IMG/VR virus record: IMGVR_UViG_3300006969_000024
Location: 1 to 29,530 of that record
Reading direction: 5' to 3' (one strand)
Source: a virus
Length of the DNA: 29,530 nt
In this document: piece after piece, positions 7,829-9,447 of the stretch
How positions within the stretch are numbered: position 1 is the stretch's first letter
Layout of the letters: every line of letters starts with the position of its first letter
The notes under the pieces: generated by a model
Databases searched by the model: none
Told to the model about the DNA's origin: nothing
Seen by the model: only the letters and a program-made list of their open reading frames with translations
Position numbers and translations under genes: made by a program

Positions 7829-8305
7829 ATGAGCCTTTTTGGCGAACTAGATGTTGCTGGTGCAAATGCTAACCCTTTCTTCCTTCCTGATGATACTTAT
7901 AAGTGCAAGATCATCGAGGCAGTAAAGCGGATTGCGAAGTCTAGTGGTAACCCTGGTCTCGCTATTACTTACCAGGTTATTGAGGGCCCCAAGAAGGGTC
8001 GCAAGATCAAGGAATGGAAGACCATTCCCCATCCTTACGAACTTGAGGGCTACAAGTCTGAGGAAGACCTCAAGAAGAAGAAGGGTGCTGACGACGAGGT
8101 TAAGGAAAAGGCTGAGCAGCAGATTTCCTTCCTTAAGCAGCGCATGGTTTCTCTTGGTATTCCTGATGAGATGCAGAACTCAGTGGAATCCAAGCATTTC
8201 CTTGAGGTCGGTTTAGTTGACGTGACGATTAAGAACTCCGAGGATCGCGTCAATGTGCAAAGCGTAAAGTTGGTGGAGGATAGCGCCGCTGACCCTTTCG
8301 CCTAG
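7829..8305 (+). CDS. DUF669-like protein, probable single-strand DNA-binding partner
   Basis: A 158-residue protein starting one base after the ATPase stop. The N-terminus (SLFGELDVAGANANPFFLPDDTYKC, split here), the middle YQVIEGPKKGRKIKEW, and the acidic C-terminal end SAADPFA fit phage DUF669-type proteins that follow Sak4 or RecA-like ATPases and are thought to bind single-stranded DNA. The acidic tail ending in aromatic DPF resembles SSB tails that recruit partners. A Lys/Glu-rich stretch (EEDLKKKKGADDEVKEKAEQ) links the two halves. Its stop codon lies within the first helix of the structured noncoding region that follows. Confidence 0.78.
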   Translation: MSLFGELDVAGANANPFFLPDDTYKCKIIEAVKRIAKSSGNPGLAITYQVIEGPKKGRKIKEWKTIPHPYELEGYKSEEDLKKKKGADDEVKEKAEQQISFLKQRMVSLGIPDEMQNSVESKHFLEVGLVDVTIKNSEDRVNVQSVKLVEDSAADPFA

Positions 8306-8708
8306 GAACCACTGTAGAGTTCTAACAGGACGGGACTGGCGGCCCAGATGCTCCTGTTAGATCAAGAGGGTGGACTAGCTAAATACAAGGAAGGACTGGG
8401 CCCCGTCGATTTGCCGGGAATAAGCCACGCAGTCACTTAGCCAGGTTGCTAGTCAGTAAATGAAGTACTCTGGGTACAAACTACCAGCCCTCTCTTTAAT
8501 TCAATAGAGGAACGCCATCGCAGGGCGGTTTACGGTTCCTACCTGCGATGGGGTTGGAGATAATGATTTTGCCAACTGCCATTATCTCCAACGGCTACAG
8601 GGCTTTAGGATAGGACTTCCCGGAAACTGTGAAATAAGGGATACGTCGGGACCTAAAGTACTGCCCTTGGTGGATTCGACCCCACCTAAAGGTCACTGGC
8701 CCTGTAGC
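8303..8708 (+). ncRNA. large highly structured noncoding RNA candidate
   Basis: No gene lies between 8305 and 8713, but perfect helices fill the space: 8321-8330/8352-8361 (10 bp, with an inner 4-bp hairpin); 8365-8370/8488-8493; 8373-8379/8448-8454; 8394-8398/8430-8434; 8515-8524/8542-8551 (10 bp); 8553-8565/8580-8592 (13 bp); 8594-8603/8699-8708 (10 bp, made of the GCTACAGG word and its complement); inside it 8603-8609/8652-8658, 8618-8622/8647-8651 and 8665-8673/8682-8692 with a two-base bulge and a TTCGA loop. The first eight bases, 8303-8310, pair with 8534-8541 in the loop of the 8515-8551 hairpin, a long-range pseudoknot directly adjoining that stem. tRNA-Leu begins 4 bases later. Size, ornateness and tRNA linkage recall GOLLD and ROOL RNAs, but I cannot match either. 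The exact ends are unknown. Confidence 0.72.
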
Positions 8709-8712
8709 ACAA

Positions 8713-8795
8713 GCCGATGTGGCGGAATGGTAGACGCAGCGGACTTAAAATCCGTGGTACACTAGTACATAAGGGTTCGAATCCCTTCATCGGTA
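8713..8795 (+). tRNA. tRNA-Leu (anticodon UAA)
   Basis: Acceptor GCCGATG (8713-8719) pairs with CATCGGT (8788-8794). The anticodon stem GCGGA/TCCGT (one G-T pair) encloses loop CTTAAAA, giving anticodon TAA, which reads UUA. The long class II variable arm (GTAC-ACTA-GTAC) and the T arm AAGGG-TTCGAAT-CCCTT are clear. The discriminator is A8795, and CCA is not encoded. It directly follows the structured noncoding region, so the two may share a transcript. Confidence 0.96.
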
Positions 8796-8817
8796 CGTCC
8801 ATCAATAAAGGAGAGAA

Positions 8818-9447
8818 ATGAAGAATAAAATCGTACTCGTCCTCGTTGCAGCGGTTGCTTTTTTCGGATTATCGACATTAGCAAGCACTGCGGCTGAGGC
8901 ACCTACAGTCACCACAAAGGTTACAGCCGAAGTTATTCACCCCTATTGGGATCAGGCTCGATGGCGTGATTGGCATAATGGTGGACCTGTCCCTTGGGTT
9001 TGTGTAGATAATCACTCACCTTTTGCTCTGCAAGTAATGGCAGAGCAATGGGACTACCAGATGAATGATGGCTATCTTTATTATGAAGATGGCAATAACT
9101 GCGCCAGTTTCTGGGAACGCGAAACTATTGATGTATTTGGTTCAGACTATCCAGGTGGTCCTTGTAGTTGGAAGTCAGTTACTTATGATGGCAATTACTA
9201 TGCCAATGTCAATATGTATATCAATACTGCAGACTCGATGGCTAGTACCTGCTTCTACTCCACCATTGCTAGTAATCACCGCAAGTCCGTAGCAATTGGT
9301 CAAGGACTAGGAGCCCAAACTTTCACTAAAATTTACTATGATGGTGAATGGCATCCAGGTGGTATTCATGTAATGGACAACGACCAAATCTGCTGTGTGT
9401 CCTATGCACAACAGCCTGATGGTCTGAATTGGGATTGGCGATACTAG
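8818..9447 (+). CDS. secreted Cys-rich hypothetical protein, possibly a degenerate metzincin
   Basis: A 209-residue protein with a clear signal peptide (basic KNK, hydrophobic core to about residue 20, cleavage likely after STAAEA). The start has a strong ribosome binding site (AGGAGAG). The mature part is rich in Trp, Tyr and paired Cys, as expected for a secreted disulfide-bonded protein. The segment MYINTADS...HRKSVAIGQGLG (133-165) has the spacing of the strand-plus-helix preceding the zinc site in secreted proteases (MNT...RRxxxCxExGH), but the catalytic His and Glu are absent. It may therefore be an inactive relative of the metalloprotease at 2323, or something unrelated. It lies between two tRNAs and upstream of the lysis genes. 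Confidence 0.78.
   Translation: MKNKIVLVLVAAVAFFGLSTLASTAAEAPTVTTKVTAEVIHPYWDQARWRDWHNGGPVPWVCVDNHSPFALQVMAEQWDYQMNDGYLYYEDGNNCASFWERETIDVFGSDYPGGPCSWKSVTYDGNYYANVNMYINTADSMASTCFYSTIASNHRKSVAIGQGLGAQTFTKIYYDGEWHPGGIHVMDNDQICCVSYAQQPDGLNWDWRY

Follow-up and report, generated by a model that had tools for sequence, protein, structure and literature searches.

Beyond tRNAs, few classes of phage RNA have been described, and most of these are unexplained. GOLLD and ROOL are large RNAs whose function is not known and which are often found near tRNA islands (PMC12286853), and theta ribozymes are neighbours of phage tRNAs, with tRNA-Leu among the commonest (PMC10879173). The put RNAs, of about 70 nt, consist of two stem-loops, occur twice per genome and are protein-free (PMC9378689). 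Small non-coding RNAs are also made by the mycobacteriophages D29, L5 and StarStuff, the most abundant coming from an early promoter at the genome end (PMC5712189), and RNase P processing forms 3' ends of the MALAT1-mascRNA type (PMC11693755).

Here we describe a locus in the window, which is the whole 29,530-nt stretch of DNA analysed (IMG/VR record IMGVR_UViG_3300006969_000024), from an uncultured, actinophage-like virus with a DNA polymerase that shares about 40% identity with its Arthrobacter phage counterparts. On the + strand, an SSB-like gene (DUF669; phrog_378, E 3.7e-7; PF05037, E 1.1e-7) occupies positions 7829 to 8305, and a tRNA-Leu(UAA), called by both ARAGORN and Rfam, occupies positions 8713 to 8796, its 5' end being the expected RNase P site. 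Between them, on the same strand, lies a real non-coding structured stretch of 407 nt (8306 to 8712), in which the ORF scan found no reading frame of at least 50 aa. The original prediction of a structured non-coding RNA beside tRNA-Leu was thus upheld, and the opening bases of the feature as it was first drawn are those of the TAG stop codon of the SSB-like gene (8303 to 8305). Neither a + strand terminator-like site nor a sigma-70-like promoter was found within 8306 to 8712, so that co-transcription of the stretch is most likely; it lies deep within the operon with no identified early promoter nearby, and the site shows no skew turning point.

The results showed a clear excess of long perfect helices: four of at least 10 bp were observed in comparison to a mean of 0.08 in dinucleotide shuffles of the same 410 nt, none of 300 shuffles matched this count, and the longest helix was 13 bp in comparison to a shuffle mean of 5.8. 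On the + strand these are a hairpin at 8321 to 8361 (10-bp stem 8321-8330/8352-8361), another at 8515 to 8551 with GGTTCCTA in its loop (10-bp stem 8515-8524/8542-8551), a hairpin at 8553 to 8592 (13-bp stem 8553-8565/8580-8592), and the closing stem (10 bp, 8594-8603/8699-8708) of a branched domain at 8594 to 8708, which ends 4 nt before the tRNA-Leu and is also its leader stem. Every long helix that had been predicted, one of 13 bp and three of 10 bp, was located, as were the multi-branched domain and an arm with a TTCGA loop (GGTGG/CCACC, 8669 to 8686, + strand). The fold of the whole stretch gave a z of -3.6, with -6.4 for 8513-8592, -2.7 for 8593-8712 and only -0.9 for 8303-8512; the folding excess is therefore located in the 3' half (8513-8712), and 8303-8512 folds about as its shuffles do. 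Since the reverse strand also folds (z -4.5), fold energy alone cannot separate RNA from DNA hairpins. A pseudoknot had also been proposed between 8303-8310 and 8534-8541 (+ strand), and the 8-bp complementarity does exist, but it is at chance level: 1.09 helices of at least 8 bp are expected per shuffle, and the pairing is thus not significant by itself. A homologous core is present in a single relative, L014, which retains GAACCAC near the 5' end, and no GGTTC partner for it was found there by inspection; the pseudoknot was dropped after the shuffle test.

At the gathering score, cmscan against Rfam 15 returned tRNAs only, and with E up to 10 over 8250-8830 the further matches lay solely on the tRNA. 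Without an Rfam 15 match, strong or weak, the RNA cannot be recognised as GOLLD or ROOL, to neither of which it could be aligned earlier, nor as tmRNA, RNase P RNA, an intron or any ribozyme described so far. The Rfam ribozyme families, theta and HDV-like families included, gave no match at E 10, ARAGORN and Rfam reported tRNAs only when a tmRNA (a tRNA-like domain with a tag reading frame) was sought, and BLASTN of the window RNA against annotated phages and plasmids gave chance matches only. Rfam near-misses on L014 and L066 were judged to be chance.

Relatives were collected by a polymerase-profile scan (80 loci), with L150 and L153 added via an SSB profile, and most of them are metagenome contigs. 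The order SSB, non-coding RNA, tRNA-Leu(UAA) was found in the window, L014, L015, L019, L027, L150 and L153. The slot of the six relatives holds 79 to 316 nt of non-coding, mostly structured sequence, in comparison to 407 nt in the window; what is conserved is the slot and not one 400-nt RNA, and its contents are rebuilt from phage to phage. Two further IMG/VR contigs belong to the same virus and, being 100% identical over the stretch (581 bp), are uninformative on covariation.

A perfect helix ends 1 to 4 nt before the tRNA in the window (10 bp), L014 (13 bp), L019 (12 bp), L015 (8 bp) and L027 (13 bp), with P per genome of 0.0005 to 0.0035, while L150 and L153 have just 6 bp (P 0.13); over all seven genomes, these two included, the combined P is 3e-11. 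The closing-stem sequences differ, except for GCTACAGGG/CCCTGTAGC, common to the window and L019. As a control we took the other phage tRNAs of this set, and a helix at P<=0.02 was found in 13 of 35 leaders (the five above included) in comparison to 0.7 expected, and in 7 of 35 trailers; several tRNAs of these phages have no leader stem. The closing stem is thus a habit of many phage tRNAs here and not a mark of the window RNA, and the idea that it is special to tRNA-Leu was dropped. In L013, L015, L017, L041, L058, L079 and L081, many tRNAs are preceded by a perfect stem of 10 to 15 bp that ends no more than 4 nt from the tRNA 5' end, and leader stems of this kind hint at how a message could remain stable once the tRNA is excised.

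Other structured gaps were seen beside SSB genes. In Arthrobacter phage Casserole (L010, 7339-7559), a gap between an AAA-ATPase gene and an SSB-like gene folds with a z of -5.6 on the gene strand and -0.8 on the other; its conservation in Jasmine and Adat-like phages is limited to the 3' half, and it is dissimilar to the window. It had been considered as a relative since it looks alike by eye (GGTGGG..GTGCCCACC), yet it aligns no better than shuffles (z -0.2 with the window, -0.7 with L014, -0.5 with L153, and 1.9 at best, with L150). In L043 (2253-2379) and L048 (2914-3027), the gap that separates SSB from primase carries a near-perfect hairpin of about 19 bp, with a z of -9.2 and -7.6, respectively.

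Among the relatives, only L014, with a polymerase identity of 50%, has the core of the window RNA, a 127-nt segment at 8366 to 8492 (+ strand; 5015-5140 in L014). The two cores have GNGGGTG, ATACAAGGAA (8383 to 8392 in the window), ACTGG and CTGGGTACAAACTAC (8470 to 8484)..CAGCCC in common at nearly equal spacing, and the local alignment of the two slots beats 200 of 200 shuffles (z 4.3). Helix A (8366-8370/8488-8492) is GAGGG/CCCTC in the window and GTGGG/CCCAC in L014, helix B (8373-8379/8448-8454) is GACTAGC/GCTAGTC in comparison to GCTTC/GAAGC, and hairpin C (8470-8473/8484-8487, loop GTACAAACTA) is paired in both. These helices were picked by complementarity in two sequences only, and the compensatory pairing is suggestive as two-sequence evidence rather than a covariation test; the conserved core itself suggests a bound partner. 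Scanning IMG/VR for both motifs at the core spacing returned these phages and three other matches within coding DNA that appear to be fortuitous. L150 and L153 are similar in layout by eye (GTGGGTG..CAGCCCAC and AAGGTG..CAGCCCACCTT), and the two-sequence model R3 matched neither. The suggestion that this may be a new RNA class is therefore helped by the absence of an Rfam match and by helices which pair in L014 through sequence change, but the core is common to one relative only. The picture of one 400-nt RNA acting as a catalyst or scaffold was not supported, given the variable slot, a core confined to the window and L014, the chance-level pseudoknot and a closing stem common to other tRNAs.

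In L059, L060, L066 and L068 the slot has no tRNA-Leu, and a compact motif starts 13 to 14 nt past the SSB stop, with the layout GGGC-P1..P1'-GGAGUGGGAG..GGUACCCCACA, two helices and a length of about 53 to 131 nt. A pattern scan gave more copies, including one that directly precedes tRNA-Leu(UAA) in L110 and one that follows an SSB-like gene in L104, and the L019 and L022 contigs each contain a second copy; some phages have two copies on one strand, and the motif mostly lies just 3' of SSB or another early gene. Copies were located in L059 (1212-1304), L066 (1664-1758), L068 (1940-2036), L060 (2761-2867), L019 (211-283 and 5801-5931), L022 (3854-3906 and 5502-5587), L055 (431-517), L110 (328-420, - strand), L104 (8862-8977), L113 (5635-5703, - strand), L125 (6391-6480), L103 (9632-9704, - strand) and L165 (2087-2203 and 2243-2352). 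With models R1 and R2, 19 copies were gathered and aligned with MAFFT, short members being N-padded; later alignments were fitted to the model. The percentage of paired cells was 97.7% over the 19 copies, and changes on both sides were observed for six of nine pairs, namely all four of P1 and two of the five in the 3' helix. Cells with changes on both sides numbered 22 in comparison to 3.8 in shuffles (0 of 500 reach this value), and slid controls fail; because flanking invariant bases fix P1 and the 3' helix, this covariation is not an artefact of helix choice. The motif also contains near-invariant unpaired bases. It is absent from Rfam, and its strict pattern had one match only in 84,980 prokaryote genomes, an Akkermansia MAG, which was taken as chance; weak R1 matches in the L032, L034, L021 and L088 contigs (10-14 bits) were not accepted.

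BLASTN led to copies of the motif in the cultured Streptomyces phages Hiyaa, Spocter, Keanu and Galactica, where they sit between a TerD-like gene (hypothetical in Hiyaa) and RecA, and since Hiyaa and its kin are cultured, the slot offers a laboratory route to function; the Hiyaa region concerned is MK279841 32077-32440. An unannotated tRNA-like structure lies 4 nt past a motif copy in Hiyaa, Keanu and Spocter. In Hiyaa (L165, about 2350-2431; same place in L166, L167 and L168) it has a GTCGATG/CATCGGC acceptor, a T-arm, CCA and a 10-nt anticodon loop AACUGGCUCC, and, judged by eye, a comparison of Hiyaa, Keanu and Galactica shows compensatory changes in three of its stems (acceptor, D and anticodon); the Hiyaa type has no ARAGORN call, and Rfam tRNA-Sec is sub-threshold. 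Spocter (L167, about 2125-2270) has a second possible tRNA-like insert (TCCTCAGG..CCTGAGGA, with an GGTTCGATTCC arm) between two motif copies, and in Microbacterium phage Shocker (L012, 6923-7174) a stretch that may be tRNA-like, GCCCCG..GGTTCAAGTCC..CGGGGC, comes after a 15-bp stem and has no ARAGORN call. In L059, positions 1305-1536 contain three modules, each with CCTTTTG(A/G)AAGGAGGT downstream of a strong hairpin, so that the T run overlaps a ribosome site; the modules resemble terminators or message-end protectors.

As to whether the window RNA and the compact motif are one family, models R1 and R2 matched none of the window, L014, L150 and L153, the best R1/R2 score on the window + strand was at noise level even with filters off, and R1, R2 and R3 fail as a bridge between the two types. 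Kinship is nevertheless possible. The slot just after SSB is shared by the window and the motif-bearing L059, L060, L066, L068, L019 and L022, and in L019 and L110 the motif is placed before tRNA-Leu. A GNGGG/CCCNC helix around GGUAC may have its counterpart in the window (GAGGG/CCCTC enclosing GGGTAC) and in L014 (GTGGG/CCCAC), with about 100 nt inserted in both, and CACATTAATTA is present in L014 and L059 alike. It is conceivable, if on balance doubtful, that the two are forms of a single new and fast-evolving RNA class of actinophages, linked to SSB genes as well as to tRNAs or tRNA-like elements, in which RNase P would make the 3' end and a conserved binding core would act either on RNA polymerase or on the transcript.

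The reading we tentatively prefer, while holding it to be somewhat short of probable, is an intercistronic structured RNA in the replication-gene transcript with an RNase P-made 3' end and the closing stem as an exonuclease barrier. The stretch would be co-transcribed with the replication operon, the RNA starting at the SSB stop codon, and host RNase P, in cutting the 5' end of tRNA-Leu, would create the 3' end of the upstream RNA. The stem ending 4 nt before the cut may then shield this new end, whether of the SSB message or of an excised RNA, from 3'-to-5' exonucleases, and the 127-nt core would be a second conserved module with a putative bound partner, perhaps a diverged relative of the compact motif that related phages carry at this position. 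The gene order in seven genomes, the closing stems and their leader control, the lack of promoter and terminator, and the L014 core all favour this reading. Against it, the trailer stems imply that such stems may serve tRNA processing generally, L150 and L153 have just 6 bp, several tRNAs are stemless, and a pure barrier needs no conserved core.

The slot could instead hold ordinary intergenic hairpins, with the L014 likeness as residual descent without function. The 5' half that folds like its shuffles, the single relative with the core and the stems common before these tRNAs fit such an account, but motifs and pairing are kept at a polymerase identity at which free non-coding DNA should have vanished, and related slots carry a covarying motif; we consider it unlikely. 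A replication origin, recombination site or other DNA-level element is extremely unlikely. Against it, the stretch is tied on the gene strand to both SSB and tRNA, the site shows no skew turning point, and the compact motif has invariant loop bases and occurs in two copies in one operon; the palindromes, which are perfect, the similar folding of the two strands and the location among replication genes would suit it.

Three further alternatives borrow from the described phage RNAs. An excised, trans-acting large RNA, working as a free scaffold or cage in the manner of GOLLD and ROOL, is decidedly unlikely for a slot so variable in length (79 to 407 nt) whose core recurs once; the window RNA is tRNA-linked, phage-borne and elaborate, but half their size or less and without an Rfam match at E 10. 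If the compact motif were the active form of a cis-acting RNA which modifies RNA polymerase to suppress early-operon termination or pausing, as put does in HK022, its two helices, the two copies on one strand in some phages and the terminator-like hairpins with a T run 3' of it in L059 would be accounted for; the window RNA, however, fails to match the motif model and lies far inside the operon rather than near an identified early promoter, which leaves this, too, decidedly improbable. A self-cleaving, theta-like ribozyme separating the SSB message from the tRNA has a phage precedent beside tRNAs, and the near-invariant unpaired bases of the compact motif would fit it, but no Rfam ribozyme matches at E 10, theta sits 3' of the tRNA while the window RNA sits 5', where RNase P suffices, and the HDV-like nested double pseudoknot could not be traced by hand in the compact motif, all of which makes it very unlikely.

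Set beside the known systems, the window RNA is similar to GOLLD and ROOL as a phage-borne structured RNA near a tRNA, its closing stem lying 4 nt from tRNA-Leu, in comparison to which it is shorter, unmatched at E 10 and rebuilt among phages. Theta ribozymes likewise adjoin phage tRNAs, tRNA-Leu included; they are HDV-like and 3' of the tRNA, while the window RNA is 5' of it and has no HDV-like match. The likeness to put is carried by the compact motif (about 53-131 nt with two helices, lying in an early operon on its gene strand, sometimes in two copies) and is one of layout, the window RNA being larger and not matching the motif. With the RNAs of D29, L5 and StarStuff it would share membership among actinophage non-coding RNAs of unassigned function, although the most abundant of those is expressed from an early promoter at the genome end and BLASTN in phage records gave chance matches only. 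If the preferred reading is right, RNase P acting on a tRNA, or on an element like one, further downstream would make the 3' end of a non-coding RNA, similar to MALAT1-mascRNA, which is a human nuclear RNA with another 3' stabiliser, so that the analogy is one of mechanism.
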